Position numbers and translations under genes: made by a program. Positions 15,001-58,834 of a DNA stretch of 64,000 nucleotides are shown one piece after another (the first letter of the stretch is position 1; each line of letters begins with the position of its first letter). The notes under the pieces were generated by a model. That model was not told the origin of the DNA and ran no database searches. It saw only the letters and a list, made by a program, of their open reading frames with translations. Source of the DNA: Glandiceps talaboti (Eukaryota > Hemichordata > Enteropneusta > Spengelidae); NCBI RefSeq assembly GCF_964340395.1, contig NC_135566.1, positions 12,342,001 through 12,406,000 of the forward strand, given 5' to 3'.

Positions 15001-17204
15001 ACTTTTCAAAAAACTTAATAACAAAAAATTCTGCTTACAAAGGTCAAACTCTTTCCTGTACAACAGAGATTTGTCCAGTTAGTGACTAGCTACTACCTGC
15101 ATTGAAACATTTTTCCAGGAAGAGGAACATGAATCAAAATTATTCCATTGTTGTTATATTTAGGAAAGTGAGTTTAAAGTATTGTGCTTTTGAAATAAGA
15201 CTGTGATAGGTTAGCAAACAATTTACTATGGAGCCCAGTATCCATTCAAGTTCCTTATACTATGGTCACCACAAAGTCACCAAAGCTCAGGCCACAGATG
15301 AGAGATTCAATTTCTGCTGTAATTTCAAATAGAAGACACAAATAAGTCAAATCATGTACACAATACAAGCTACAAAGTAATACCCTGGTGTGTGTATTTT
15401 CAACAGAAAAGCAGGGCCATTTACACACCCTTTGTACCGTGGTCAAATGGAAGGCCCTGGAGTGTGATAATTTAAGTGACAAATAAGGCCATCTACACAC
15501 TCTTAGTAATATGGCAACATGACAGACCTTTGACTGTCCATTTATGCATTGAAAGTTGGCCATTTATACAATCATAGTAATAATATGGCACAATGAAAGG
15601 AGTTTGTAGTGTGTACTTTTACGAGGAAAGTTGAACATTTACACATTCATAATATTTTGGTAGAATGTATTTTTTAAGTTGAAAGTGGGGTCATTTAAAC
15701 ACTCATTGCAGTTTGGTAGAGAGGGGGACATTATTGTGTTTTGAAGTGGAAAAGTAGGAAGTCCCAGAATGTAAACAGACTAGACATCAACTACAGGCTA
15801 TGCAGCTTTGAACAGCAACCAATATACAATTGTAAGATGACTGATGACTCAATATATTGTTCTCACATTTGACAGCACTTCATATATGTGGTCTTGCTAG
15901 ATATTAGACTTTAGGGGGATATTACACCAAACACAGAAAAAATATACTGATCATATATTTTTATTTGAAACATCAAAACCAATAGTTAGAACTTTGCTAT
16001 GATGTAGACCAACATTATTTTATTTTGGAATAAAGACTTCCACGTAAAAGGGTTTGTCAGTTGATCTGAGAAGTAAAACGTGTGCATAAAGTGAAAAAAA
16101 TGAAGTAAGAAAAGTTTAAACTTAAACTTTGATCATGGTGTTTACATAAAGTATCCCCAATCCCTGTTCATTTTTTTTTATTTTTCAAATATTTGAAAAG
16201 CTGACTTCAAATGAACAATAAGAAATACAGTTCCACCATGATACTCAGTGAAGGTGAACTTTTCAAATAAATTGGTGTGATAGGTGAACAAACAAGTGAG
16301 TAGGTGGCCCAGAATGCCAGGTCCACTTATATTATCACTTCACATACTCCAAGGCTTCATAGTTAGTCAGAGATTACAATTATTGTTCAGGTACTGAGTA
16401 TTTTTGTTTGGGCAATGGAGAAAATGAATTATATGGTACATTTCCAAGGACGGGGTAGTTCCATGCATTATTTTTAGAATATGGTCGATCGATACACTAG
16501 CCCATGTCACAGCTGAATTTATGTATGACCATGCATTGAGCCCAGGTGAGAGTGTAGTGACCATAGTTGGCAGAACTCACATGGAGTCTAAAGTAGGTTA
16601 CATGATGCATTTGTATAAATAACTCTCCCCCCCAACTGTCAAAAATTGCTGTGCCTTATCTGACTAACAAATTTACTTTTAAAAAACTTAATAACAGATT
16701 CTGATTGCATAGGTTAAACTCTTTCCTGTACAACAGAGATTTATCCAGTTAGCAACTAGCTACTACCTGCACCAAAGCATTTTTCCAGGAAGAGGAACAT
16801 GAATCAAAATTATTCCACTGTTGTTATATTTAGGAAAGTGAGTTTAAAGTATTTTGCCTTTGAAATAAGACTGTGATAGGTTACCAAACAAGTTAATATG
16901 TAGCCTAGAACCCATTAAAGTTCCTTATACTATGGTCACCACAAAGTCCTCAAAGCTCAGGCCACAGATGAGAGATTCAATTTCTGCTGTAATTTTAAAT
17001 TGAAGACACAAATAAGTCAAATCATGTACACAATACAAGCTATAATAATACCTTGGTGTGTGTATTTTCAACAGAAAAGCACAGGGCCATTTACACACCC
17101 TTGGTACCATGGTACAATGGAAGGCCCTGGAGTGTGATAATGTCAGTGACAAATAAGGCCATCTACACACTCTTAGTAATATGGCAACATGACAGACCTT
17201 TGAT
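6072..17204. repeat. 11-kb tandem satellite array, ~1.67-kb and ~1.08-kb monomers
   Basis: The landmark CCTGGAGTGTGATAAT(TT) recurs at 7266, 8933, 10600, 12230, 13306, 14381, 15456 and 17126, giving spacings of 1667, 1667, 1630, 1076, 1075, 1075 and 1670. Each monomer holds a C-run of about 8-11 and a GGTACCATGGTACAATAG-type palindromic core. The array starts inside a monomer near 6072 and its last copy decays near 17204. Reading frames of 60-102 codons recur on both strands at the same place, overlapping each other. They vary by frameshift and look like by-products of repeat similarity, not genes. Confidence 0.9.
12231..15456. repeat. Block of three short (~1,075 bp) satellite monomers
   Basis: In these three monomers GAACAGCAACCAA joins directly to AAAATGAATTAAATGG. 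In long monomers about 592 bp separates these words (for example ~9301-9898). The second and third short monomers are almost identical over their full length, so this block was probably amplified most recently. Confidence 0.85.
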
Positions 17205-17930
17205 TTTGACTTCACAATTATGAAAAAGAAAAAAAAGACCTTGAAAAAGTAGGATCATTTACAAAGTAACATTGCAACATGGTTAAATGTGCGACAGGGG
17301 AGAGTACACAAACTCTTTTTTATAAACATCAAAGCCAACAAAGTTACAAATATACCATACTGAGAACCCATGTTTTTTTAATATTGGGTAAAAAAAGTCA
17401 TTTCCCAGATAAACAAATTCCTACATACTCTGTGAAGTCAAACTTGCATATGAAGAGGAAAACAGGAACTTGGAAAACTCAACGTCAAAAAGCCTTCACC
17501 TTTGAATAAAATGTTTTGATGAAGTATCTTAGTTACTCTAGTTCATATGAGCTGTCTTTCAAAAATGTCAGAAAACAGGCGCCAAAAATCAAACACCTTA
17601 CAGCACACTTAAGTTTTGTTTTGTCAGCGAAAGGTTGAGATTTTGAAATCAGTGGGTAATCACAAAATATGTAGCCTAGAATCAAAGCCAGTTCCGATTG
17701 CATTTATTGTTAGTGTAACACAACACAAAGGCTTGATGGTCAGTCATTTTAATTACAATGAAAATTGACTAATTTTGATTAGAAAATGCTCATATGAAAA
17801 TTACATTGTGTGGTAAATTTCCATGGCAATGCCAATGTTTTCAAAATGTCAGTACTATACCACACCTGTTTGATTCCTTTTTCCCCCTTTTTTCATATGA
17901 TATTGCTCTGGTTTGAACATGCCATTTTAT
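17205..17930. other. Unique AT-rich sequence, nothing recognised
   Basis: The satellite similarity stops near 17204. I see no supported exon, repeat or RNA gene before the exon-like remnant at 17931. Confidence 0.45.
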
Positions 17931-29593: not shown

Positions 29594-29610
29594 ATGCTGA
29601 TCAAGGAATT
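29594..29610 (+). CDS. PITPNB: PITP exon 1 (start codon, 17 nt coding)
   Basis: ATGCTGATCAAGGAATT followed by the donor GTAAGT encodes MLIKE plus two bases of the Phe codon. It ends in phase 2 and matches the conserved (V/L)xIKE(Y/F)R N-terminus of class I PITPs. Confidence 0.9.
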
Positions 29611-31714
29611 GTAAGTAACAAATCTTGGCATATTACTACCTTTCTTGTGTTTTTCGCCGATATATTAACATCGATATGATTCTTTGTTTTATGCTCCATA
29701 CAAGGAGCTCAATCATGTTGTTTGTAATCAGTGAATCATTACGATTTTGTTACGTTTATTGAAACTAACTTGGTTCAATTTTTAATTTTATCTCTGTCCT
29801 GTCATTATACGTACGTGTGGTTGCTTCCTGTTTGTCATCGAAGTCGCATCGTTCTACCTATATCAGTAGAAGAGGTAAGTCACTCTTATTTAAATAGCGA
29901 TTTGTTCTACCATGACACGTCAGAAAAATCGAGATTTCTTTGGTCAAACTGTCACAGTGACTATGAGCTGTTCAAATACTGAAAGCGATGTTGACAATGT
30001 CACCGTATTGTAGTGTCCGATCGAAACGCTCAAACTATGTTTGCGATCACCACATACGTCAGGTGTGTGGGTTGACAAACATGAAAAAAAAAACATGACG
30101 TCTCCTCTTCTAGGTGTTGTCATCCTCTCTCACTGGATCGTTTGTTCGGAAAAAAAAGACATTCACATAAATAGGTTATCGTTTACGACGTGTGCAAAAT
30201 AAGTACAAATCGGGTCAACAGAGTGCATGTTATCACTGAATGGGGCGGTAGACAAGCCAAGTCGTAGGAGAATCATTGACAGTGCTATTGTTATGATAAC
30301 TAAACTAGACATTGTTAACACTCCCTGGTCAGTTGTTAGTTGGCAGATTGTGACAGTACTACATGTACATGAATTCTTGATATAATTGTTAATCTGTATT
30401 AGATCTCATGACCTGTAAAGAATTAACTGACACAGTTGTACAGTAAAAAATACTTAAAGTGGCACAAGCTGGGTTTATAAGCGTTTTACTCCAATGAACA
30501 TACACACATAATAACCTCAATTAAAGTATTTTAAACTGATATTAATGTTGATGCATGCTTTCAATAAGTTATAAAATTACAATTGTCTTCTGGTGTTGTT
30601 AGAACTGCCTTTTGCTTAGAAGGGATATTGTGAGCATTTTTGATTCATATGATAAATTTATGAGATTGGATCATAATACCTAAATTATATCTTGATACCA
30701 AGTTTGAGCTCAGTTCATTGCAAATGGTGGTTGAATACAATACTGCAAGTACCTTATAAATATGCAGCATTAACTACATTCAAACACGACATGTAAGCTT
30801 AGCTTGTGTCTCTTTAATTCTTCAAATATCTTTGAAAAAAGTATATGAATTATTTGCTGTTTGTCATTATGAAATTGATACAAAATATTACCCCCCCCCC
30901 CCCCCCCCCTGAACAATAAATGTCTTTTACATTACTCTTGTCAAGGTTACAACCTTGTCAAGTCACAAACCTTTTAAACACTAGAAAGTTTGCTGACTTT
31001 ATTCCAAAAATACCATGATCTTATCTAGAAATGATGATATATTATAACTTGGAGGAGGTAAAAGGACTAACAACAAATAGAACCATAAAGGACTCCTTAT
31101 TTGTGAGGATTGAAGTTGACATGTACTCTCCTTCCGTGAGAGAGTAAATTACAGCAATCTGTGAAGTAGAGCAGTCATTATAAATATTACTCTCTTACTC
31201 TCTATGAGTACTTCATGAAGCAGAGATTAGAACCAGTTGCAATAGAAGGAACAAGACATGGGGGTGTGTCCCAGGTGGGTCCCAATGTCACAGAGGTCAG
31301 GAGACACAACAATATGTGGATTTTAAAATGTTGGCTTTACAGTGACAATATAGAAATAAATTTAAAGGAAAATTTACATTGAGTCATGTACGAAAATCTT
31401 GCTGATTTTGAAAATTTGGGACAAGAAATTTGTTATTCTGAAATATATTATTTGTAATGTTGTACATAATGATAATCATATTAGGATGTAGGTTCATTTC
31501 GGAAGAGGTATTTACAGGCTTGTATTATATGCAATATCTTGTGTTGAGGGTCATGTCAGTAATCGATACCTGTGCACCGTGTGCAAGCAGGCTACATAGG
31601 ATAGTGTAGGGTAATGTACAGATTGTTTTATCTGCAAACATTAACAGCAAGCATTAGATCTGAGTGTCATTCATTTCCCCACTAAAAGATATTAATATTT
31701 GGAAAATATATCGA

Positions 31715-34700: not shown

Positions 34701-36115
34701 TATTGGTTTGAGTTCATAAATGTATGACATTTAGGATATGAATTAACCACAATAGGCTATGAAATGCCGAGTCCATTTCATCTTCATTTCTGTTAGCCTA
34801 GAATCCAGTGGGGACTTTTGGTTCTCGCTTTTCCTTTACTATGCCTGGTATTTCGCTCCTGGCCTTTTACTTTAATTATTTGGTTTTAAATTTTTCCCCT
34901 CTTTAAGATGACATCAACTGTCATTATGTGATTAGAACCAATTCAGACGGTTGAGCTAGATGATGTACACATAATTACCATATTCAATCATTGCTATAGG
35001 GGAATTTGTAATCTAATTTTAGATTTGACGGAACAGTTACTAGCAAAATGTCAGGCATGGTAGAGGGAATTGAACACATGCTTAGCTACAAGACCACAGC
35101 CATAGCAACACTGAAATGATGGTGTTTATTGCAAAACCAACAACAGAGATGGGTAGGCAAGTGGATAAACATTCAAAATATGAACACATACGTGTATGCC
35201 TAGCAACAAGACAGTGTCCATAGAAACAGTCAGCTGATGTTGTATTGCAGTGATAACAATAGGGATGAATAGGCAAGTGGATAAACATTGAAAAAATGGA
35301 CATGGGAATGAATCAACTTGCCAAGACAGAATAATAAATGTAACCATTCTGATGTATCATTAGAATTGACCTTTGACCTTTGTGATTTTGCTTTCAGTAT
35401 CAAGTAGGACAACTATGGTCTGTAGCTGAAGCTAGTAAAAATGAAACTGGTGGTGGAGAGGGTATAGAAGTGATAGTCAATGAACCTTTTGAAAATGATG
35501 AATTTGGTAAAGGGCAATACACACACAAAATCTACCATTTAGCAAGGTAAGTGGACAATATTTTCACAGATCGATATTTTGCAGTTGTCCGTGCTTTCCA
35601 TCTAAATATATGTGATGCGTACAAATTGATATCGTTAGTACCCTCATCCAGTTGCTGAATAGGCTCTGATGAGATTTAACATAGAAGTGCACATTTGTAG
35701 AAGAGGAAGATATGCTGTGCAAAGTATCACAGTGGTATATGATTTTTCAACTTCTCTGAAGTGTTTAGATTACTTCCTTGGTTTCTGTAGTAAAGGACAT
35801 AAGCGTTACCATTTCTTGTATTCTTTTGTGAACATTGATAATGTTCAAATTTGAAATATCGCTGTTCCAAGTTTGTTCCAAGTTCACATACATGTACAAT
35901 GTACATTCAAACTTGTTGGAATGTCCGTTTACTTTAATCAGCTGTGAAATGTAAGGATTTGAAAGTGTTTTATTTTTTGTCATCAAATAATTGTGTAAAT
36001 AGTGCACTCATATTTCTCTTGGCTTGACAGATTAATATAATCATAGACAGTGGTGAGATAATGAAAAAGTGTGTGTGTATGTATGTATGTATGTATGTAT
36101 GTATGTATGTATGTA

Positions 36116-47506: not shown

Positions 47507-50500
47507 TGCGTGCGTGCGTGCGTGGATGATGGGGAGGGGATGATGACCATGCATATGTAGTAGACCCTGATACAGGTGCCTTCAATACCATATCAGGGGG
47601 GAACTTTGTATGCTATATCAAAAGCACTGAACGTCCTAATCAGCAAGTACAGTCTGTTGTCATTGCTGAAAAGATGAGGTGCTACATCTTGATTATTCTA
47701 TCACCAACTTTGACATTGCACTTTAGCATTAGGGATGCCATGGTAACGGAGATTGCACAAGTATACTATAATGCCAGAGAAATGTTGGTAAAACAATTGT
47801 CAGTTATTTGATGGCGTGATATTACATGTACATCCCATTTCAAGTTACCGTTCACTGGCTCTGTTTGATACAACCAAGCAGAAACCATTAAGAAACTGCA
47901 CATACTATGTAGCAAGATTGAATAAATACATTTTTTTGCGACATTTTGTCTAAATGAAAAGAACTAACATGGCACCATGCAGACATCAAGTACAGACATC
48001 AAGTACAGACATCGAAACATTGGCACCTACCTGTACAGTGTTTTTGCTAAGGTTGGAGGAACCCCGCTAACAGAAAGGGGGAATATTGTAAAACATGCAT
48101 AGTTTCTAAATGTAGTAAACTATAATTTTGGTGGAACCGTGGTAAAATGAAAGGGGAACTCAGGTAGATTTGACGTGTTTACTTGCCTTCACAAAAACAC
48201 TGACCTGTGTGTCTACATCTAGTTACAGTAGTTTAAATGTTTTATTTCATTTTGACAAATTATAGCAAGAAATCATGATCTTGCTAGCTTAGTATAGAAC
48301 ATGCAGTTTCATAATGGTTTCTATGTGCTTGTGTCAAACACAGCCCTTGAATGGTAACTTGACATGGGCTATATATGTTACACATGTGATACCTGAGTCT
48401 GAGTTGCCACTGTAGTTGAATGTGATCCATTGTGCCGTCTATTGATAGCCAAATTTTTGTTGTTGTGAGTCAAAATGATAAAAAAACTGGCATTTGTTGT
48501 GAGTCACCACATAGTAAGAGATACGGGAACACCAAATTTTGGTGTGTCATTATAAATTGTGTGTCAGTGGTGCGTCAAATTGGCTTAGAGGGTACACTGA
48601 TATTTGTGAAGTATGGTATGTCAGATGAGTCTTGATACATCATTGTACATGTACATGTGTATGATTTAGTACTCTGTTCAACCAAGAGAAGTATAGGTAA
48701 CACACAACATGAATTGTGATTATACATGTCAAGGTGTTTGATAAGAGCCTTAGGCTTAGTTTGAGAAAGATGAAAGCAGCATATCACTTATGATATCTTT
48801 GTATGGTTTGCTTTACAGTAAAGTACCAAAATTTATACGTCTTTTAGCTCCGAAAGGAGCATTGGAAATCCATGAAAAAGCCTGGAATGCTTATCCCTAT
48901 TGTAGGACGGAAATCTCTGTAAGTAGAAGGATTTTCCTATTTCACTCTTGACTATATTATAATATATCCCTGATTACTTGTATCAGTGCACGTTCATATG
49001 AGTGGTATTTGTACTTCTGTGCTATACCTTTAACATAAGCCCTGTCCACATCTGATCCAGATCCAATCTGTATTAAAACTGATCCAGATCACTTTAATCC
49101 ACATTGAGTCCATTTTCCATCTACACTAAAAAATTGAAGTGTGGGTTTGATATGAGTTACATTAGCATACCTGTCCACACACTACCAGCTTCAATTCGGA
49201 TTACTTATTATCAAACTATTCACTCGAGTACGCACCTGTCCACTTCGAGCTGATTGTGATCTGATTTGAATTACTTTGATCTGGATCAAAACCACCACCC
49301 AGAGTAGGCTTCGATCCGGATCAGTTAGTTAGAATTAGATACGAATTCACCACAAGTACGGACAGGTAAATCGAACTGGATCAGATTTTGTAGTATGGAC
49401 AGGCTTTATTGTTTCATACTTTCATATGTAAATGAGCATGTGAGCATACCCTGTACACAAAACCATGTGATATATTTCATAAAATATGTCGTTTCAGATA
49501 TAGTACATTAAATAGCAGAATGTATTTGCACGCATGAATATTTGTACACTTGTTCATTCTTCTGCATCATTTTCACTCATTGTGCTCTTGAAAGTGTGAC
49601 CTCAGAGAACCCAGCACTTTACTCATGCATTTTGTACATTTTGACTGACATTTTGATATTTAAAATTGGATAGCTACTCCCTCTGGAATGATTCTACTTT
49701 AGAATTCACTGTCATGGTAACAGAATTCACTGCCATGGTAACGGAATTCACTGCCATGGTAACAAGATAGTTTTAAAGGTAAAGGATGCCGTGTGAATTC
49801 ACATTGTTCATTAAAAATGTGGATGTTAAATAAAATGTGTTGATTTGTTTCACTTTTACTTTACTTCTAAGTATGATCAGAACTTTTGGCAGAAGTGATG
49901 TATGAGACTTGCTATGTAACTCCCTTTAAACATATTGTCATCAGTTACTATTATTATTGTAATTCTCGGTACCTGAACTAGAATATTACCGCTGATGCAC
50001 ATCAAAAAAATAACGAACATTCGACTTCTTGGTTGACACCATAACTTTCACTCCATGCGCTTCACATACATTACTTATAGGCGCGCATGAGAATAAGTCA
50101 ACCTTCTTGTTCTATTTTGACCCTCTAGCATGAGGTAAAATGCTATTGCAGGTACCAAGAATTGGAAGGTTTGTTTAACATTGTCAATGTAACAGAATTT
50201 GTGTAGCTCCTCTGCTGCGTCACTTCTGCCCAAGTTTGGATGGATACTAACTCTGTACTGATCAGTAAAAGTGAATGCAACCAATGCATTTTAGTGCATT
50301 CAACACCCAAAGTTTTTATTAAAGATAGTGAACCAGGTATCCCTCCCAAATATATAAAGTAGGTTTGTTCTTCAGATTTTTTAGCTGTGAAAATAAAATG
50401 AAAGAATCACAATGAATATTGTTTGAGGGCGCCCTAACAATATCTTTCTCACTATGTTTTGTTGTTTCATTTTCAGAATCCTGACTACATGAAGGAAGGA

Positions 50501-53500
50501 TTCTACATTGTTATTGAAACATGGCATAAACCAGATAGAGGTGAACAACATAATGTAAGTTCATATTCTATAATTTTAATTTTAACCTTTTAGGAAAAAG
50601 AGCTTGTACTTTGTTTGTAATCTTGTACCTTGAAATACAGTGTTCAGTGTTCAATGTTCCTGTGTGTGAACACTACTGCCAAGGCACATCATAAAAGACA
50701 GTGAACCCCACTGTCAGACTTGTGGTAAATTCACAAAGTTTCATATGTACATTATGATATCGTTGGTAATGAAGTTGTGTAGATATACCTGCTCAGCATC
50801 CTGAATGATAACATTAGCAGGACACTCGTGGCGGACAGAGTTTGGAACTCGGGATGATTTGACCTATCTGAATACTTCCCATCAGAATAACATTGGTAGA
50901 GAAGCCTATAGTGATTAGGGAACTCAAAAACAAAAATACTGGTTGGGAATCTGGTAAAGTGACTAACAGAGGTAGATTTGTGAACTTACGACTCAAATCA
51001 AAAACACTGGTAGGGAAACCTGGTAGAATGACTATGGAGTGTTGATAGATTCTACCAACTTAAATCAAAATAATTTGAGACATTAATATCTGTAATATTC
51101 GAGACACCTTCCTGAAACTGAAAGTTGTCATGCAGTAACAGAAATCAACTATATAAGAAATATAAGAAAAAAGAAGATCATTATTTCAATTTTGTAGATG
51201 ATATTAATTTGATGAATTTGTTGCAGGTACATAATCTTAATGATGACAAGTTAGCAAAGAGAGAAGTTATCAACATTGATATAGCAGCACCTGTAGAAAG
51301 TAGGGTAGGTATATGTTAAAAAACTAACCAAAAAACCTTTCGTCAAGACTCATAGCCTTGCTACTTTGGCTAATTGTCTTAACATATCAGTTTGACGATG
51401 GGTGTGACTCCTTGTGAGATTTCACTAATACAACCATGGTTTATCTGTTTGCTATAGACTTCAAGTTCAAAATAGCCCTCAACGGTTACTTAAGACTATT
51501 CACAAATGGTGAAAGCCCTTTCACCGCAAAAGTAGCGTGTGGGTCTTTCACTGTTTAGGGGGTTTTAGGGGATTTAGTACTTGATTGATTCCAATGTTTA
51601 TAGCAGTTGTCAAACATTGGACGTATTAGTGAGATCGCACTTACACATCCCAATGGTCAAACTGAAGACAATTTAGCAAAAGTAGCAAGGCTGTGATGGA
51701 GTCTACCCCTCATCTTGAGTAATCAAGGGTAGTCAATTTGCCTTGTTTGTTATTCAATCTTAGCATACAAAGGTGTATGTGTTAGCATGTCCCGTAACAT
51801 TCAACCTGTTTGTCTTCCATCAACGACTCAATACCCAATTGGGTGCCGTGTTGTGTTTACTTTAAAGATGGTTGCGGTGCATTCAGTTCACATCTGGTTG
51901 TGTTTGTTATATGGAAATTGTTCATTGTTTCATTCTGCAGGATTACAAAGAAGATCAGGATCCTACAAAATACAAATCAGAAAAAACAGGTCGTGGTCCT
52001 CTCAGTGGAGATTGGAAAGTAAGTGATGGGGGTTAAAGGTTAAAGGTTAAAGGTTAGGAGGGATGCAAGGTTAAGACATTGTAGAGGTCAAGAGGGGTGA
52101 AATTATGAAATGGGAAAAAGGTCAGTTTTAGTATGTTTTGATCAAAAAGAAATAATACTAGTGAATAATAATATTATTGGGAATATGATTAGTTTGTATG
52201 TGCAAGTAGAAATATTATCAAAACGCCTTAAATTGTAGCCAAAGTAGTATAATGGTACAACCCTTAAAACTCAAGTAAAACTTTGTCATGAGTTGCCACA
52301 ATTGTTTATAGCATCTAAAATGTAAAAGTAAACTGTTTCAATTGCTTTGATCATCAGCCCAGTATGTGGTGTCTCTCAGTGTAATCACGCTGTAAACAAT
52401 GTTAGCAGTGCAGAACAAGTAAATAGTCATTGACTAGAGTGTAAACAATGTTAGCAGTGCAAAGCAAGTAAATAGTCATTGACTAGAGTGTAAACAACTT
52501 GTTAGCAGTGCAAAGCAAGTAAATAGTCATTGACTAGATTGTAAACAACTTGTTAGCAGTGTAAAGCAAGATCTAGATCTCATTGCCAGCTAGACTGTAA
52601 GATACGTCGTGACGTTTCGCCCTCACCGGCCTCCTCTCACACAGGGGTTGGTCGATGTTTGAGGGCGCACCGTCACGGCGTACCTTACAGACTAATTGCC
52701 AGCTAAATATAATCCAGATTTTGATGGCTATCGTTCACTGTAATCAGTGTGATGTTCTTTTTAGCAGAAAACATTGTTTACAAATTTTGACTACATTAAA
52801 AATGCCACATACTTATTATTAAAACAATTGGCAGAGTACATTTTTCACTTGATATGAACACTATAAATGACTGTGACAAACACAGAAAGTGTTGTACTTC
52901 GGTGTTAAGGGTTGTAATGGTGTTGAGATGATAAATTCTCGACCTCAAAGTGACACAACTGTCAGGTAGCTTTCTATATATTTATACAGGTATTAGTGGT
53001 GAAAACAAACACTACGACAGTGAAAGTCTACGAAAGCTGATATCCATATTTTATTATTATCATTTCCAGCAAGCTTCACAGAATACTGTATAAAGCCGAT
53101 AGTAAAATTGATTTTCAAACTTGTATCTGAGATGGGTTTTAGAGGAGAAATATGTTTCAGCAGATTTGAATACCTTGTTGTCCTGTGGTCGAGAATTTCA
53201 TAGATTTATTTTATGCCAATGATGTAGATTATATTTTCAGCGACCTCTGACCTGACAAGTGGGCTTCAGTCCTCAGGTGATACTATATGCAGTGAAGTAA
53301 GCTTTGTAACCAGCTTCTAATTTGCATAATGTATAACAAGGCTGCTGTAATGCAACTGCCATCTGCTGGCTGATTTTACAAATTTTTATATTTGTTCTTT
53401 CATTTCCATTTTCTAATTTTCAATTTTCTACTTTCATCTTATATATGTTCTTCGTCTTACCAATTTTTTTTTACCAGCTTTTCTTGAAGCTGTCAATTTA

Positions 53501-56125
53501 TTTTTCTTCATTCATCTTACATGTTTCATCATTCGTCTTAACTCATCATGTTCCTGATAAACTGACCATATGGATGAGGATTGGGTATTTATTTTCTATT
53601 TTAATCTTAAACAATTTCATGATGGCTTCCGTCTTGAAAATCAGTGTGAAGCAACATATGCCAAATCCTTTCTTGCAACTCAATAAATTGCAAAAGATTA
53701 ATAAATGTGTCAAATATTTATTATTTTATGTACAATAACAAACTTTTTATACATTTTTTGTAGCTTTTTCAGTGTATTGAGTTACAAACACAGACTGTGT
53801 TGTTTGATTTATCAAGAAAGAAGCCTTGATAAAATTGTTTTAAAATAAATACGTAATCTTCATCCAGAAAGCTACTTTACTGTTATACAATCAAGTTCCA
53901 TAGAAAAAATACGACAGCCTTTCAACCCCTCCCCAACACAACCCAAACACAACCCCAAACGCATGTTTCTCACCCAAAACAAACAGCGAGCTGACATTTA
54001 TTTACATCAAATAAAACTAAAAAAGCAAGCATGCAGTTAATAATTGGTTATATTTCATACCCTATTTTCCCTTACTCATCGCCTTTATTTTCATCTTTTT
54101 TGTGTTATTTGTTTGCACTGACCGTTTCACTTCACTGCAGACCACCTGTGAACCTCATATGTGTGCCTACAAGTTGGTCACCATCCTTTTCAAATGGCGC
54201 TTATTACAGGACAGAGTGGAAAGTATGATCAACAAGGTAGACATGTTTCTATTTTCCTTACAGCTGCCTCACCGACTGCACTCCTATGTACATTATACAT
54301 ATACACAGAATGCTTTTTTTGTCTTTTTTTTATTTTCATTTTCTTCCCACGTCTTCAGAAACGTGTCGACCCACACATGTGTGCCTATAAAGTGGTAACG
54401 TGTGAATTCAAATGGTGGGGACTCCAAAGCAATGTGGAAAGTCTAATAATGAAGGTATCCTGCATCCTCATGGAATACATGTTGAATTTCAAGCTATATT
54501 TTTAATGTATTGTGCCCAAAATCAAGTGTACAGAATCCCAATCTCAAATCCTTGTCTTCTTCTCCCTTCAAGTACAAAGAGAGGATTTTTTCTTTCAAAT
54601 TCTTTGGGTGTATCTTTAGGGTATCTTTTCACTTCTGTGTGATCACAAACTGTTTGTATTGACCTTGTCTTTTTTGTCTGATCTTAGATTGTTGTTATTT
54701 TTATCATTTCACTTTGTGTGATAACAAATTGTTGTGTTATCCTTAAAACTGTGATAGCTGTAACTGTGTCATACTTAGAAGAAAAAAAAGTGTTCTTCCT
54801 ACATCTTCTGAAAAACATTGATGTGTGTGACATGGAATGGTGAAGTGTACAGTTGTACAAATACTATGTCTTTCGGTATGCTTTGTAGTCATTCCTCCAA
54901 AATATTATACATAACAGCTAACTCATAGATCTGTCAACAGAATTATTATAGTTTTTTTTCATTGTGGTGTCATTAATTTTATGTTATGGTGTTGGTACAA
55001 ATTGTGGTATATTTTGTTATAAACAAAGTGCTTGATGTCCTGTAAATGTGTGTTTGCATATGTCATAATGTTGGTATATGTCATAGTTCATGGTGTCGGT
55101 ATGCGTTATATGTCACGGTGTTGGTACATGTTATCGTATATTTGATGGTGTAGGTACAAACTTCTGTATCGTTTGTTGACAAACAAAACCCTTTGTTGTC
55201 CTGTAATGGTGTTGGTACATGTTTTGTCATGGTGATGGTGTCAATTGTTGTATGTTTCATCACAAACAAAACTTAGTACATGGTTTTTTGGTTTCTAATT
55301 GTTGTTTTGTTATGTCTCCCTGTGAACAAATCCAAATTGTGATCTACCGATGTATTCTGTGTCTGATATATATGTACCCCTTGTATGTCACAACTCTCAA
55401 ATCTTCCTTTTTATCTGGTTTCACTCAAATTTCAGCTTCTGAACCACTTCTGTCTGCACAATTTGACCACATTTTTTGTTTACACTGCTTATATGAAAAT
55501 ATGTTTCATTGATGGTTTATCCAAGTGAAAAAAGTAATAGTTAATATATATAGTTAATGATTTGAGAATACAATCTATAAATTGGTGCACACGTTGATCA
55601 AATTGTGTTTCCTATAAAGCTAAATTATTCATTTTCATAATTAATGATTTTTGGTAATTAGGCAATACCTTAAGTATACAAATTTAAGATTTCTTATGGT
55701 CTTGCATAACTATTGGCATATCGTGTATGATATCTATAGCTAAGAATTTTGCAACCATTATTGTGTGTAGGAAGGAAAATCTAATCAGTTTGCCCTTATG
55801 GAAGGCATTCAGTTTAAATCTAGTTGTGTATGACTTACTATGGAACATACGCAGATTTGTAACATTAAATATGGTCAAAGTGTGAATCTCTCTTCTAATT
55901 TCCACATAACAGTTGAATGGGCATTTATTGAATCCCCTTTGGTTCGGTGACTTTCCAGTATTTATCGGTAAAAAGGGCACATATTGCATGGACATTTGTT
56001 CGCACATATAATGTTTATGTCGGTGAATTACAAGGTTCATAAAGGAATTGCATACATCCGTACACAAGTGTGTGCATGCATGTCCGCATACATACATACA
56101 TACATACATACATACATACATACAT

Positions 56126-56158
<33 letters not shown>

Positions 56159-58834
56159 TACATGTACACACATACATGCACACACTTATGTGTACATACA
56201 TGTACACATAATATACATATGCACACATACACATACACATGTGCGCACATGCATACATACATACATACATACATACATACATACATACATACATGTACTT
56301 ACACACCTATGTATGTATGTATATGTCTTTAAAAAACACACACATACACTCACACATTATACATGGAAATGCACTCTATGGAGGTATAAGGTGATAACCC
56401 AATCCTCTTGTAGTGTCCTACCCTACCAAAACCATGCTTGGGAATGTTCACATTTGTTGGACAACTGGATATTTGGCAATGTTACCTTGAAACCCTGGTT
56501 CTGTAGAGTGTTTACTAGTGGTTCCTACTTTCTGGAGTCAATACCCTAGATTGAGGGGGTGTCAGGAAAGGTGACACTGTTTTAGTGGGCACAATTACAA
56601 GGAAAATATAGCATCAAAATGTCAATGTGTGTCTTCATTTATTTTACTTTTTATCATGAATTCTATCTGCATGATTTGATGCACATTGGAGAAAAGGGAA
56701 GTGCCGAATGACACCAAATGTTCTGTATGGCACAAAAAAAATATGAGTTGTGAAAAAAAAAAACATTTGTGTGCTTATTGTCGAACAAACATTTTTCAGT
56801 AAAATATTCTTGTGACCTTACTTTATAATAGATATATGATAATTTGATAAGTGCTAAACAGATTTTTAAGTTTCATGAACTCAAAATTTATAACAAGCAA
56901 ACTTCACATTTCCCATTGATGAAAATTACTGAAAAGGGATTGTGCTTTGTGTAAATTTTTATGGGTTCAAAACAAATATAAAGTGGAAACTGGTGTTGAG
57001 ATTGTGTATTTACATGAATTTTATCTATCAGTGTGAGAGCTCTGCACGATTTGCATGTCAGTGAGCTCATTTGCATAACTTGTGGTTTTCTGTTTTATTG
57101 TTGATTACCATTTTAATATGTTATTTGTTACACCACATGTAGAAAATTACCAATTTCAGACATATATACATTGTTAATGAAAAGTTCAGTGCTAACTACA
57201 GAGATATTAAACTTAATCTACAAAAAAAATGGTTTGCATTTTTCAACTAATGAAATGACTTATGCCTCAAAATACTTAAACCGTGTAATAGTTAAGCATT
57301 TGTCATTTTCCCTGCAACATATTGAGATGAGATGAAAAAAACCCACAAATTTGTTCGTGCTCTTAAAAAAATATACGTAACCAAGACGATAAACAGAGTA
57401 AGACTTGAAGAAACTTTATTTTTTTTTATTTGATGACCACATTTTACTGACGACGTTGAAAACAAAATATGAAAAATACATTTTTAGTTCAAAATGCAGA
57501 TACATGTAGTGTAGAGTAACATGTTTTCTACCTGCTACATACTGTAGACTTTGTATGTTCTTTAGTGAAAAATTCTGCAAAATATCTGTTGTGCCCTTAA
57601 AAATTAGTATTTGAGATTTTCAAAATATGTTCAGGATTTAGTACGGTAGTTTGTCGCACTGTAAATACGATGTTCACAATAAAACACATTGCATACTCCA
57701 CAGAGGTGACACCAGAGTAGCTTTAATTGATGTCTAACTGTATACCATTTCCACTGACCAATTTGTGTTACAGACTGAACGCAGGATTTTTACCAATTTC
57801 CATCGTCAGTTGTTTTGCTGGCTGGATAAGTGGCATGGTTTGACTATGGAAGATATCCGCAGAATTGAAGCCGAGACAAAAAAAGAATTAGATGAGGTAT
57901 ACAAATTAAACTCAAAGCAGCGGAAGCTGTAATTTTTTGATATATTTTTTGTTTGTTTATTGACCATTGATAAATACACTAAAGTTTCACTTGGAAGCTG
58001 TTCAGTTCTCACCAGCTGAGTTACCTGTGTAAGCACCGTTGTTGGTTTAGTGTACGACCAGCTTGATGAATATTGTATGTAACCAGTAGTAGTGATTTAG
58101 CGTCCAGACCATTTACTACCAAGTTAGAGGGCGTACAGAGTTTCAATTTGGCGACACAAATTTGTTTACATCTCACACAACATTCTTCGTTTCGATTCAC
58201 AAAAAAACACAAATGCATGCACGCATATTTTTTTTTTTTTGTAGTCTAGTGTTTGCAGTTTTTTCTGCAGCAGAACTTTCACGAGCGTAGCTAGTGAAAG
58301 CACAAATGCAAATATCCAAGTACCCACACTTGAACTCATGCGACATGGGGTTCTGTTATTATTATGTATGTTTATTGTCTGAAATAGCAAATTTCCATAG
58401 AAAAGCTACTGTGCGATTGTGCGTTTTTGTACAACAAATATTTTGGCACCCTCATTTCCATATAATTTGCATGCAGGTATGTAATTTCATTATTACATAT
58501 GTACCAGAGATTACGTACATTGGTGCACGTACATACTAGTGGTATTTTCACTGCAGTGCAATACCGAAAACATTATTGCATACCTGCATACACATAAAGG
58601 CATGATCTTTTGCTACATGTGAAATCACATGATCATGCTGTATGTATACCACACCTGCACTTACGTGTAATAGGGTTCTGTCATAATATTGTACTGCAGT
58701 GCAAATACCACTTATATGCACTTGCAATGGTGCAAGTAATCTCTGGTATATATATGTAATAACGCATGTTTTTTTTTTTCATTTCTTGACAGCAACGTAA
58801 AGGTGGTGAAGTACGTGGTACAGTTGAACAGTAA
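29594..58834 (+). CDS. PITPNB: Class I phosphatidylinositol transfer protein (PITPNA/PITPNB orthologue), complete gene
   Basis: Cytosolic lipid exchange protein that carries one PI or PC molecule between membranes to support phosphoinositide signalling. Joining 29594-29610, 29844-29874, 35398-35546, 48819-48918, 50477-50554, 51227-51304, 51941-52018, one of 54141-54236 / 54359-54454, 57774-57896 and 58793-58834 gives 263 residues (vertebrate proteins ~270) with every phase matching. Expected residues are present: Thr58/Lys60 in QYTHKIYHL, Asn89 and Cys94 in NAYPYCRT, Ser164 in [10 protein letters not shown], and Glu241 in RRIEAET. These correspond to vertebrate Thr59, Lys61, Asn90, Cys95, Ser166 and Glu248. 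Every intron is GT-AG. There is one gene, not separate alpha and beta, as in invertebrates. Exon 8 is duplicated (8a/8b); see those entries. The symbol is given by family; alpha and beta cannot be told apart. Confidence 0.95.
29844..29874 (+). CDS. PITPNB: PITP exon 2 (31 nt)
   Basis: The acceptor TTTGTCATCGAAG precedes T-CGC-ATC..., completing Phe and encoding [10 protein letters not shown] before the donor GTAAGT. The combined 48 nt of exons 1 and 2 give 16 codons and end in phase 0. Confidence 0.9.
31717..31778. repeat. (GT)31 microsatellite
   Basis: Uninterrupted GT run within PITP intron 2. Confidence 0.95.
32189..32689. mobile_element. Long-arm foldback element, ~500 bp, in PITP intron 2
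   Basis: The ends TAGCTCTGGATATATA and TATATATCCAGAGCTA are inverted, and the similarity runs inward ~240 bp per arm (for example GACTAAATGAAATAC / GTATTTCATTTAGTC) to a short centre near 32440. Both flanks read TGTGTGTGG, consistent with a 9-bp target duplication, but that sequence is low complexity. No protein is encoded; probably a non-autonomous Mutator-like or foldback transposon. Confidence 0.85.
33382..33571. mobile_element. hAT-like MITE 'CAGTGTGCCCTCTAA', copy 1, with 8-bp TSD
   Basis: Starts CAGTGTGCCCTCTAA and ends TTAGAGGGTACACTG, an inverted repeat with one mismatch. It is flanked by perfect 8-bp direct repeats GTCTAGTC (33374-33381 and 33572-33579). CAGTG ends plus an 8-bp duplication are hallmarks of the hAT superfamily. 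It is 190 bp long and has no coding capacity. Confidence 0.9.
35398..35546 (+). CDS. PITPNB: PITP exon 3 (149 nt)
   Basis: The acceptor TTTTGCTTTCAG leads into [20 protein letters not shown], then [11 protein letters not shown], a loop END-EFGKG and [10 protein letters not shown], with donor AG|GTAAGT, phase 2. It carries the lipid headgroup-binding Thr58 and Lys60 and the GGGEG segment. Confidence 0.95.
36061..36270. repeat. (TATG)n-(GT)n compound microsatellite
   Basis: TATG units, a 37-nt GT run, GTCTCT units and further TATG units form the tail side of the dispersed element that follows. Confidence 0.95.
36276..36456 (+). mobile_element. Short dispersed element with (ATGT)n tail, copy 2
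   Basis: Reverse-orientation copy of 27112-27292. Over the core, a 45-codon shared frame differs at a single residue, so the copies diverged recently. The shared frame is not a recognised protein. Confidence 0.75.
37430..37520. promoter_or_regulatory. CpG-containing promoter-like patch inside PITP intron 3
   Basis: A short GC-richer patch with an E-box (GGTCACGTGATT), an AAATATGGCAGC element resembling a YY1 site, and CACGTACGCGAAACACGG. It lies near the antisense frame at 37872-38705 but on its downstream side, so a link to that gene is uncertain. Confidence 0.25.
37872..38705 (-). CDS. Hypothetical membrane-protein-like frame, antisense in PITP intron 3
   Basis: A 277-codon open frame, unusually long for this AT-rich DNA outside simple repeats. 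The first internal Met gives [12 protein letters not shown] followed by a hydrophobic stretch ([17 protein letters not shown]). Next comes a ~90-residue soluble segment rich in charged residues ([46 protein letters not shown]), then a second strongly hydrophobic stretch ([19 protein letters not shown]). The charged middle looks protein-like; the part after the second hydrophobic stretch does not. I do not recognise the family. It could be one exon of a nested gene, a retrocopy or chance. A 182-bp tandem repeat lies immediately upstream. Confidence 0.35.
   Translation of the reverse strand: MLLLLPGKCCAVTYSVYFVLVFKMIVCSSKVLITQAVISGTVFVLLLALLPASLPVGMHTLGHVHQVTVYIQRVSSRLILVKLKLRQLKSPYERDAIIQNVCDEIGARNDQVLCHRIGVNLFNDEKHSDPYKIQVDLTLVHSFGYQMTSCLLLFLLPILLFLVVVILPSTVFTLFDFVNYFLFSYSSTRSSGNICTVKSENDNILIALQLLCLANGVFNSYYLISSPFDFQSSVFSLFCTRYLHISNLRSWSYLSGGQIPVHTYRYVFDLSPMHVIQ
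38753..39310. repeat. 182-bp tandem repeat, 3 copies
   Basis: Units beginning GTACAAACTTGACCGCCC start at 38761, 38942 and 39124 (periods 181 and 182). Within each unit ACTTGACCGCCCAAAATAA occurs twice about 37 bp apart. Copies two and three are almost identical. The unit contains GATCGTAAAAATACCAACTT; function unknown. Confidence 0.95.
39311..40487. other. Intron DNA with small GC-rich patches
   Basis: Two CCGGAAGT/ACTTCCGG ETS-like words (near 39585 and 39795) and a GAGGGCGCCAGC word near 39825 occur. TTATATAAAAGTGCTGCAGTT at ~39555 repeats a block at ~37816, a short direct duplication flanking the antisense frame and the 182-bp repeat. Confidence 0.4.
40488..40825. repeat. 38-bp minisatellite, ~8 copies
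   Basis: The unit reads roughly CCAGTATTTTMACCAARTAT followed by ATGTTGCTAATAGCAATT. GTTGCTAATA words start at 40551, 40589, 40627, 40668, 40706 and 40744 (spacings 38, 38, 41, 38, 38). Alternate units differ (TTTTCACCAAGT versus TTTTAACCAAAT), giving a 76-bp higher-order pattern. Confidence 0.9.
42690..42975. repeat. (TCTG)n/(TCTA)n microsatellite with a duplicated spacer
   Basis: TCTG units at 42692-42751 and 42900-42965 are separated by CAGATTGGTCTGTCAGTTC-type blocks that themselves repeat (near 42770, 42865 and 42980). Confidence 0.9.
45656..45829. mobile_element. hAT-like MITE 'CAGTGTGCCCTC', copy 2
   Basis: Same body as 33382-33571, running from CAGTGTGCCCTCAAGTGACA to AGAGGGTACACT. 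The flanks share only an imperfect ATTCC(T/A) word, so the target duplication has decayed. Confidence 0.8.
46232..46400. mobile_element. hAT-like MITE 'CAGTGTTTTTG', copy 1
   Basis: Begins CAGTGTTTTTG and ends CAAAAACACTG, a perfect 11-bp inverted repeat around a 169-bp non-coding body. Its body (ACCGTGGTAAAAT, GGGAACACGGGTAGATTT-type words) is shared with 48036-48202. Confidence 0.8.
46910..47600. repeat. G-rich ~100-bp minisatellite with G19 tract and embedded GT/GC run
   Basis: Words CC(T/G)(G/C)ATGAGGTGCC recur near 46985, 47078, 47177, 47260 and 47564, each followed by AAAGTGGGAAT and GATAGATGATCATGT-like words. G runs of 13, 12 and 19 lie at 46950, 47042 and 47128. 47411-47510 is a GT run interrupted by GCGCGCGCGCGC. 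The G runs could form quadruplexes, and the alternating purine-pyrimidine run could form Z-DNA. Confidence 0.85.
48036..48202. mobile_element. hAT-like MITE 'CAGTGTTTTTG', copy 2
   Basis: Same termini and body as 46232-46400. Flanks TACCTGTA and ACCTGTGT share ACCTGT, a possible decayed target duplication. Confidence 0.8.
48428..48599. mobile_element. hAT-like MITE 'CAGTGTGCCCTC', copy 3, upstream of PITP exon 4
   Basis: CATTGTGCCGTCTATTG to TTAGAGGGTACACTG with the same body as 33382-33571. It ends ~220 bp before the exon 4 acceptor. The first TIR carries mutations, indicating an older insertion. Confidence 0.8.
48819..48918 (+). CDS. PITPNB: PITP exon 4 (100 nt)
   Basis: The acceptor TGCTTTACAG is followed by T (completing Ser66) and [33 protein letters not shown], then donor GTAAGT, phase 0. 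Contains Asn89 and Cys94, the counterparts of the vertebrate PI-contact Asn90 and alkylation-sensitive Cys95. Confidence 0.95.
49037..49407. mobile_element. MITE with 'AAGCCTGTCCA' inverted ends in PITP intron 4
   Basis: Begins AAGCCCTGTCCAC...CTGATCCAG and ends CTGGATCAG...TGGACAGGCTT. Several further inverted CTGATCCAGATC / GATCTGGATCA and CCTGTCCAC / GGACAGG words lie inside, so the element can fold back on itself. No coding capacity; superfamily unclear. Confidence 0.65.
49702..49765. repeat. 21-bp minisatellite, 3 copies
   Basis: GAATTCACTGYCATGGTAAC units start at 49702, 49723 and 49744. Each carries an EcoRI and an adjacent CCATGG-like palindrome. Confidence 0.95.
50477..50554 (+). 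CDS. PITPNB: PITP exon 5 (78 nt)
   Basis: The acceptor CATTTTCAG leads into [20 protein letters not shown] and RGEQHN, with donor GTAAGT, phase 0 on both sides. Contains the conserved Y-M-K-E-x-F and ETWHKPD words. Confidence 0.95.
50870..51070. repeat. ~70-bp degenerate tandem repeat in PITP intron 5
   Basis: Units of the type CAAAAACACTGGTAGGGAA-(A/T)CCTGGTA-AGTGACTA-GAGGTAGATT(T/C)-ACTT recur about every 70 bp, ~2.5 times. The word CAAAAACACTGG is also the terminal word of the CAGTGTTTTTG MITE, so the array may derive from such an element. Confidence 0.7.
51227..51304 (+). CDS. PITPNB: PITP exon 6 (78 nt)
   Basis: The acceptor TTTGTTGCAG precedes [20 protein letters not shown] and APVESR, with donor GTAGGT, phase 0. 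It covers the V-x-x-(I/L)-x-IDIA(D/A) strand of the lipid cavity. Confidence 0.95.
51941..52018 (+). CDS. PITPNB: PITP exon 7 (78 nt)
   Basis: The acceptor CATTCTGCAG leads into [20 protein letters not shown] and LSGDWK, with donor GTAAGT, phase 0. Ser164 lies at the site equivalent to vertebrate Ser166, a reported PKC target, within KSEKTGRG. Exons 5, 6 and 7 are all exactly 78 nt. Confidence 0.95.
52391..52585. repeat. ~50-bp minisatellite, 4 copies, in PITP intron 7
   Basis: Units TGTAAACAA(CTT)GTTAGCAGTG... AAGTAAATAGTCATTGACTAGA begin at about 52391, 52440, 52490 and 52540. Confidence 0.9.
52591..52694. mobile_element. GC-rich MITE 'TAGACTGTAAG', copy 2, with 9-bp TSD
   Basis: TAGACTGTAAGATACGTCGT to GGCGTACCTTACAGACTA, with inverted ends as in 27997-28111. 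Perfect 9-bp direct repeats ATTGCCAGC flank it (52582-52590 and 52695-52703). The TSD length suggests Mutator-like mobilisation. It is inserted directly after the 50-bp minisatellite. Confidence 0.9.
53559..53878. mobile_element. Foldback MITE 'GTGGCCATATGG', copy 4, upstream of PITP exon 8a
   Basis: AACTGACCATATGGATGAGG at the left and CTTCATCCAGAAAGCTACTTT at the right are inverted, as are CTCAATAAATTGCAAAAG and CAGTGTATTGAGTTAC inside. It belongs to the family at 1934-4044 but is more diverged. It ends about 260 bp before the exon 8a acceptor. Confidence 0.8.
54141..54236 (+). CDS. PITPNB: PITP exon 8a, alternative cassette with W-R in place of W-W
   Basis: The acceptor TTTCACTTCACTGCAG opens a 96-nt phase-0 exon encoding [19 protein letters not shown] then [13 protein letters not shown], with donor AAG|GTAGAC. 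It aligns without gaps to exon 8b (19 of 32 residues identical), so one arose from the other by tandem duplication. In vertebrate PITP-alpha this region carries adjacent Trp203-Trp204, which insert into membranes and are needed for lipid transfer. 8a keeps Trp196 but has Arg197 and Leu198 where 8b has Trp-Gly. The exon is open, has good splice sites and conserves the structural residues, so I think it is expressed, not decayed. A protein using 8a would dock differently on membranes (inference). Confidence 0.85.
54237..54358 (+). other. 122-nt intron between alternative exons 8a and 8b
   Basis: GT at 54237, AG at 54357-54358. The last ~50 nt are an almost continuous pyrimidine tract (runs of 7-8 T), stronger than that of exon 8a. 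The tract TCTATTTTCCTTACAG at 54248-54263 mimics a second acceptor only 27 nt from the 8a donor, too close to be used with it but able to bind U2AF. This arrangement could enforce choice of one exon by steric interference. Confidence 0.7.
54359..54454 (+). CDS. PITPNB: PITP exon 8b, cassette with canonical W-W membrane-docking motif
   Basis: The acceptor TTCCCACGTCTTCAG opens a 96-nt phase-0 exon encoding [20 protein letters not shown] then [12 protein letters not shown], with donor AAG|GTATCC. It matches class I PITPs in other animals, including the FKWWGLQ word, and is therefore the ancestral-type version. Because 8a and 8b have equal length and phase, either alone joins exon 7 to exon 9 in frame; including both would insert 32 extra residues into the same structural element. 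Confidence 0.92.
54955..55275. repeat. Degenerate tandem repeat 'GGTGTTGGTACA'
   Basis: GGTG(T/A)(T/A)GGTA(C/T)A words recur about every 30-60 bp, and a longer unit ending ATAAACAAAG...TGTCCTGTAAATG / ACAAACAAAACCCTTTGTTGTCCTG repeats about 175 bp apart. Confidence 0.65.
56088..56294. repeat. (CATA)n/(CACA)n microsatellite cluster
   Basis: Two CATA runs (56088-56145 and 56251-56294) enclose a CACA/TGTACACA-rich stretch. Long reading frames across it on both strands are artefacts. Confidence 0.95.
57774..57896 (+). CDS. PITPNB: PITP exon 9 (123 nt)
   Basis: The acceptor TTTGTGTTACAG leads into [40 protein letters not shown] and E, with donor GAG|GTATAC, phase 0. Contains the RRxFTNFHRQ(L/V)FC signature and Glu241 (vertebrate Glu248). 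Reading through the donor continues in frame for 11 codons ([11 protein letters not shown]) to TAA at 57930-57932, a possible retained-intron C-terminus. Confidence 0.95.
57897..58792 (+). other. PITP intron 9 (896 nt)
   Basis: Ends GTTTTTTTTTTTCATTTCTTGACAG. The last third is a foldback element (58484-58772) reaching to within 20 nt of the acceptor. The rest has no recognised feature. Confidence 0.8.
58484..58772. mobile_element. Foldback element abutting the PITP exon 10 acceptor
   Basis: ATTACATATGTACCAGAGATTAC (left) pairs with GTAATCTCTGGTATATATATGTAAT (right). ACTAGTGGTATTTTCACTGCAGTGCAATA pairs with TACTGCAGTGCAAATACCACTT, and GGCATGATC pairs with GATCATGCTG toward a centre near 58625. 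Arms are ~140 bp. The right arm stops about 20 nt before the splice AG. Confidence 0.85.
58793..58834 (+). CDS. PITPNB: PITP exon 10 (C-terminus and stop)
   Basis: Encodes [13 protein letters not shown] and TAA at 58832-58834. Short variable tails after the last helix are normal for class I PITPs, where the C-terminal residues control membrane affinity and differ between isoforms. Confidence 0.88.
   Translation, partial: QRKGGEVRGTVEQ

Follow-up and report, generated by a model that had tools for sequence, protein, structure and literature searches.

Tandem versions of the docking-tip exon in a class I PITP gene of the acorn worm Glandiceps talaboti

Can a single PITP gene supply its product with two different membrane-docking tips? 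The question is raised by a stretch of 64,000 nucleotides from Glandiceps talaboti (contig NC_135566.1, positions 12,342,001 to 12,406,000, referred to here as the window), in which two neighbouring homologous exons both cover the docking loop of a PITP. So far, docking and carrying by PITPs have been tested in cells with artificial docking mutants (PMC2635478, PMC4582195). The double alanine mutants (WW203/204AA) of PITP-alpha and PITP-beta show neither retention at membranes nor PI transfer (PMC2635478), and the YW/AA mutant of RDGB keeps PI binding and loses transfer (PMC4582195). The role of the loop in docking and the residues that contact inositol, which in PITP-alpha are T59, K61, E86 and N90, are described in PMC2635478, PMC8266687 and PMC4582195.

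A class I PITP gene with two versions of exon 8

A complete class I PITP gene (29594-58834) lies on the plus strand of the window; it has ten coding exons if exon 8 is counted once. Coding exon 1 (29594..29610) encodes MLIKE plus two bases and is followed by exons 2 (29844..29874), 3 (35398..35546), 4 (48819..48918), 5 (50477..50554), 6 (51227..51304) and 7 (51941..52018). Exon 8 is present in two versions, 8a (54141..54236) and 8b (54359..54454), and the gene ends with exon 9 (57774..57896) and with exon 10 and the stop codon (58793..58834). When these exons are joined through 8a, the product reproduces, letter for letter, a gene model from NCBI, "PITP alpha isoform-like isoform X1" of G. talaboti, an enteropneust hemichordate of the Spengelidae (P0002). 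Among the matches listed, P0002 is the sole 100% full-length match to the searched region; by E-value it ranks second, after a mite model in which some parts are duplicated. The 8a form is therefore already annotated, in a public gene model that lacks 8b.

The 263-residue 8a form aligns with the IP_trans profile (PF02121) from position 1 to 246 of 246, scoring 390.4 bits against a cut-off of 21.3. The domain is thus full length and carries no long extension, as in a class I PITP. The predicted fold (mean pLDDT 89.0, pTM 0.85) is that of a PITP, its best solved match being PITP-alpha (8pqo_A; TM 0.86/0.89, 67% identity). In this model exon 8 contributes a strand (residues 184-194), a loop (195-199) and the start of a helix (from 200).

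Exons 8a and 8b are separated by an intron of 122 nt (54237..54358). Each is 96 nt long, in phase 0 and bordered by AG and GT, and the two are identical at 58 of 96 bases and 19 of 32 residues, both counted with no gaps. Exon 8b is the canonical version, with the loop FKWWGLQ; 8a, the version used in isoform X1, reads FKWRLLQ. When 8b was compared with the 127,810 ungapped 32-residue frames of both strands of the window, its best matches were itself (32), 8a (19) and then a frame with only 8/32, so the likeness of the two exons is not due to chance. The initial annotation had described this pair, with its borders, spacing, identity count and loop motifs, as a tandemly duplicated exon of a class I PITP. 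The coordinates, the letters and a recount all agree with it, and two homologous exons that match in length and phase do lie side by side within a complete gene.

A protein made with 8b would be identical to P0002 at 250 of 263 residues (251/264 counting the stop) and would hence share its 90% cluster, which has two members. Among the matches listed, which come from a set clustered at 90%, no record corresponds to the 8b form of the G. talaboti gene.

Tandem exon substitution is known as a kind: dynamin-1 has the tandem duplicated exons 9a and 9b (PMC3896118), and 14-3-3zeta is listed with others among such substitutions (PMC9013439). Like those exons, 8a and 8b are adjacent homologues of equal length and phase, each of which alone completes the protein. 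They differ in that they belong to a PITP, where they lie over the docking loop, and in that their use is only likely to be exclusive. PITPs are also diversified by splicing in PITP-beta and PITPNC1, but the sp1 and sp2 variants of these proteins alter the C-terminal tail (PMC8266687), whereas the exchange of 8a and 8b acts within the lipid-transfer fold, on its docking loop. In the literature searched we found no such exon pair over the docking loop of a PITP and no work on hemichordate PITPs. Where PITPs and mutually exclusive exons occur in one text, the exons discussed are those of dynamin and a C-terminal exon of PITP-beta, and PITPN is absent from the main text of a study of tandem exon substitution in humans. 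The statement of the initial annotation that a docking-exon pair had not been described in PITPs therefore stands for that literature, and the PITP docking loop as a target of tandem exon substitution is new as far as searched.

Elsewhere in the window, CATA and CA simple repeats occupy 56090-56300, in the intron after exon 8b. Upstream of the gene, a tandem array with long units (6092-17313) contains eight copies of a 300-nt core, which are 64-100% identical to a reference copy and spaced at intervals near 1667 and 1075 nt. Translation at seven places gave frames interrupted by stops, and the array looks like non-coding, satellite-like DNA. Rfam gave no match at gathering score within the window.

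The two docking tips

We consider it probable that this one class I PITP gene carries an old tandem pair of docking-tip exons, which are most likely used singly and whose products differ in docking. The pair would descend from an old tandem duplication of the exon that encodes the late strand, the docking loop and the start of helix F, and splicing would choose between 8a and 8b, most likely with a single one of them in each transcript. Exon 8b would provide the ordinary aromatic Trp-Trp tip. Exon 8a would provide a tip that keeps the first Trp and has a charged or polar residue in place of the second (Arg here, Thr in a relative), with aliphatic residues around it (TILFKW[R/T]LLQ). The resulting isoforms would differ in the strength, speed or lipid preference of membrane docking. 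The positions of T59, K61, E86 and N90 lie outside exon 8 and are common to both isoforms, which should therefore bind similar lipids. However, the strand encoded by exon 8 may line the lipid cavity, and equal lipid binding is for this reason not assured. We infer mutual exclusion, regulation, altered docking and equal lipid binding, and exon choice might uncouple lipid binding from membrane release, as the initial annotation proposed.

From 8b to 8a the first Trp is kept and the second becomes Arg (Thr in the relative, P0004); the Gly that follows becomes Leu, and the Cys-Glu before FKW becomes Ile-Leu. The Trp-Trp motif is accordingly present in 8b (KWWGLQ) and absent from 8a (KWRLLQ). How telling this is can be judged from 126 exon-8 segments of 123 proteins, taken from the best 120 of 808 matches and three proteins from further searches; the set is biased towards relatives of 8a, and the search pattern missed the canonical segment of the psyllid protein P0005. 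Among the matches listed, the first position is Trp in 125 of the 126 segments. The second is Trp in only 58, with Phe in 47, Arg in 8, Leu in 4, Tyr and Met in 3 each, Lys in 2 and Thr in 1. Three of the 126 (P0002, P0004 and P0005) have a Leu immediately ahead of FKW or the corresponding residues.

These counts bear on two earlier statements about the motif. That exon choice swaps the Trp-Trp motif is correct for the second Trp and overstated for the pair, since the first is kept in 8a as it is throughout nearly all of the segments. That loss of Trp203 and Trp204 abolishes transfer holds for the double alanine mutants (PMC2635478), whereas for a change of 204 alone no such published result was seen. 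Because the family does not keep the second Trp constant, changing it alone need not abolish docking, and since position 204 varies naturally the effect of 8a may be small. The WW203/204AA and RDGB YW/AA mutants do alter the same loop as 8a, but they are laboratory double mutants, whereas 8a still has the first Trp and brings in aliphatic residues. With the gain of I, L and L around the loop, 'docking-modified' fits 8a better than docking-dead. We read the 8a tip as retuned from aromatic to aliphatic plus polar, and the comparison suggests that docking is altered rather than lost in the 8a form.

The variability of position 204, where eight different residues occur in the 126 segments, also gives some weight to another reading, which we consider rather unlikely: 8a and 8b are used alternatively and are functionally near-equivalent, either because 8a has drifted within the tolerance of the family and the choice is of little consequence, or because the choice affects the helix or partner binding instead of docking. 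The fold prediction for a WW-type protein (Ptychodera, P0006) has the same outline as that of the 8a form and the same pLDDT of 89.0. Summed interfacial propensities point both ways. Over a ten-residue stretch 8a (-2.45) and P0004 (-3.12) are no worse than 8b (-1.89) and are close to human WW (-2.61), with the double alanine mutant at +1.43, as near-equivalence would have it. Over the five loop residues, on the other hand, about 2 kcal/mol is lost between 8b (-3.26) and 8a (-1.17), with P0004 at -1.84 and the double alanine mutant at +0.78. The unusual TILFKWxLLQ, which G. talaboti shares with P0004, argues for selection and thus against mere drift.

Should the preferred reading, a pair of exons whose products dock differently, be true, a natural isoform pair, alike over most of the protein and different at the docking tip, would make the question of PITP docking testable in a normal animal, and position 204 would be a site that evolution tunes while position 203 is fixed. 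A single acorn-worm gene is probably able to yield two lipid carriers that differ in how they contact membranes.

Probable choice between exons 8a and 8b

Annotation and constraint make alternative use of 8a and 8b very likely, and mutual exclusion of the two appears likely. Exactly one copy of exon 8 is present in each model of the three named hemichordates seen (P0002, P0006 and P0020) and in P0004; it is of the 8a type in P0002 and P0004 and of the WW type in P0006 (Ptychodera) and P0020 (Saccoglossus).

A cis-acting device that would enforce exclusion was sought in the reading frame, in steric constraints and in RNA pairing, and was found in none of them; the class of mutually exclusive tandem exons does not require one. 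Both exons are 96 nt long, so a transcript with both or with neither stays in frame, and exclusion cannot be enforced through the decay of wrong transcripts. The weak donors of 8a (GTAGAC) and 8b (GTATCC) rank 8th and 9th of ten when scored by base frequencies. However, the donor of exon 9, which is used in P0002, is weaker still, and weak donors are therefore not special to the pair. The 122-nt intron contains branch-point-like sites 20, 26, 87 and 98 nt ahead of the 8b acceptor. Since the sites at 20 and 26 nt are 102 and 96 nt away from the donor of 8a, splicing of 8a to 8b is not sterically barred, and nothing forces exclusion by steric means. Competing RNA pairing between this intron and its two neighbours did not rise above that of shuffled sequences (57 and 29 of 60 shuffles were as good). 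If mutual exclusion holds, trans-acting control would be its likely means.

The equal length and phase of the exons, together with the lack of a forced steric block or RNA pairing, would equally allow a good share of transcripts to contain both exons or neither. We regard this as improbable. Zero or two copies are found in none of the three named hemichordate models or P0004, and a second copy would add a strand and a helix start to a conserved fold. Two consecutive exon-8 copies are carried by a model of Branchiostoma lanceolatum PITPNA (P0014, residues about 245-305), which would speak for joint inclusion; gene models can, however, wrongly join mutually exclusive exons. The lancelet model resembles the acorn-worm gene in having the same exon twice, but both of its copies read WWGLQ. 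In a tree of 23 exon-8 segments the two copies form a pair of their own (91/89), apart from 8a, so this duplication looks separate from that in G. talaboti, for which single use of 8a or 8b remains our preferred reading.

Age of exon 8a and docking tips in other animals

Exons 8a and 8b differ at 14 of 17.5 synonymous sites (pS 0.80, which is saturated) and at 24 of 78.5 nonsynonymous sites (pN 0.306). A counterpart of 8a is found in P0004, a hemichordate-like open reading frame of 270 residues on a jgi contig of 1008 nt, a length that points to an intron-free, cDNA-like source. Its exon 8 is identical to 8a at 25 of 32 residues (counted by eye) and has the TILFKWxLLQ signature in common with it. 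Outside exon 8, in a comparison with ten proteins, the closest were those of the hemichordates G. talaboti (198/231), Ptychodera flava (188/231) and Saccoglossus (173/231). A jgi-based exon search with P0004 returned six proteins from seven candidates, and the full TILFKWxLLQ was present in P0004 and P0002 only. P0004 could represent a separate gene that has 8a alone.

The low pN beside saturated synonymous sites, and the signature in P0004, indicate that 8a is not decaying and that each exon has been retained under constraint. The initial annotation had argued from the open frame and the kept structural residues against decay, and its conclusion is strengthened by these data and by the use of 8a in the NCBI model. 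Although 8a lacks the second Trp, a decaying or assembly-made copy is very improbable and was ruled out by this constraint, by the signature in P0004, by the identity with isoform X1, which is placed on a 23.5 Mb record, and by a base identity (58/96) much below what a recent duplicate made in assembly would show.

In a tree of 21 rows P0004 and G. talaboti pair at 92/95, with the four-row hemichordate clade at only 34/78; in an earlier tree of 19 rows the fork of P0004 and G. talaboti was drawn open (under 80). The exon-8 tree of 23 segments pairs 8a with P0004 at 99/93. A version with 22 segments, which takes in a nematode (P0121) and a fish (P0061) segment and omits the two amphioxus segments and one psyllid segment, joins P0121 to 8a (93/94) with P0004 next, and sets the three apart from the rest at 97/94. 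An AU test on these 22 rows did not reject a group that held 8a with P0004 (p-AU 0.434). It rejected 8a and 8b as a sister pair, the arrangement of a recent duplication in Glandiceps only, although on 32 columns only (p-AU 0.0025). The exon trees are weak at this length, and the groups for the AU test were chosen once the first tree was known. The nematode protein has the same seven residues as 8a (FKWRLLQ) and is only 51% identical to P0002 as a whole, and in our opinion its likeness to 8a arose by convergence. That it stands nearest to 8a nevertheless means that 32 columns cannot fully separate ancestry from convergence. Exons 8a and 8b are a genuine tandem pair, old and under constraint, and cover the docking tip of a class I PITP.

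On a wider scale, it is tentatively conceivable that PITPs have been retuned repeatedly by exchange of their docking tips, with the first Trp as a fixed anchor and position 204 as the tuning site. Hemichordates would have taken the route of exon choice (WW to W[R/T]L), psyllids perhaps that of a duplicated exon (P0005), fishes that of variant proteins (FKWRGLQ, FKWKLIQ) and the nematode that of its own gene (FKWRLLQ, P0121).

Several fish PITP-like proteins (P0085, P0088, P0116, P0061, P0072 and P0105) have R, K or M at the position of the second Trp, and P0105 has lost the first Trp as well. Three of them read FKWRGLQ (P0085, P0088 and P0116) and one FKWKLIQ (P0061); in these four the first Trp is kept and the second residue is basic, as in 8a, but the variants are whole proteins. 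In the psyllid Cyamophila willieti, P0005 contains FQWRGLQ and then FKWFGFQ, separated by odd sequence, and may be a faulty join; P0123, from another contig of this species, has only an R-type exon-8 segment. An exon search with the region of P0005 found the same species only (2/2 candidates). In another insect, Diaphorina citri, P0098 has two consecutive exon-5-like segments, NPNYMKEKFLLVVESLH... and NPGYMKENFFITIESYH..., a doubling that hints at another alternative exon in insect PITPs.
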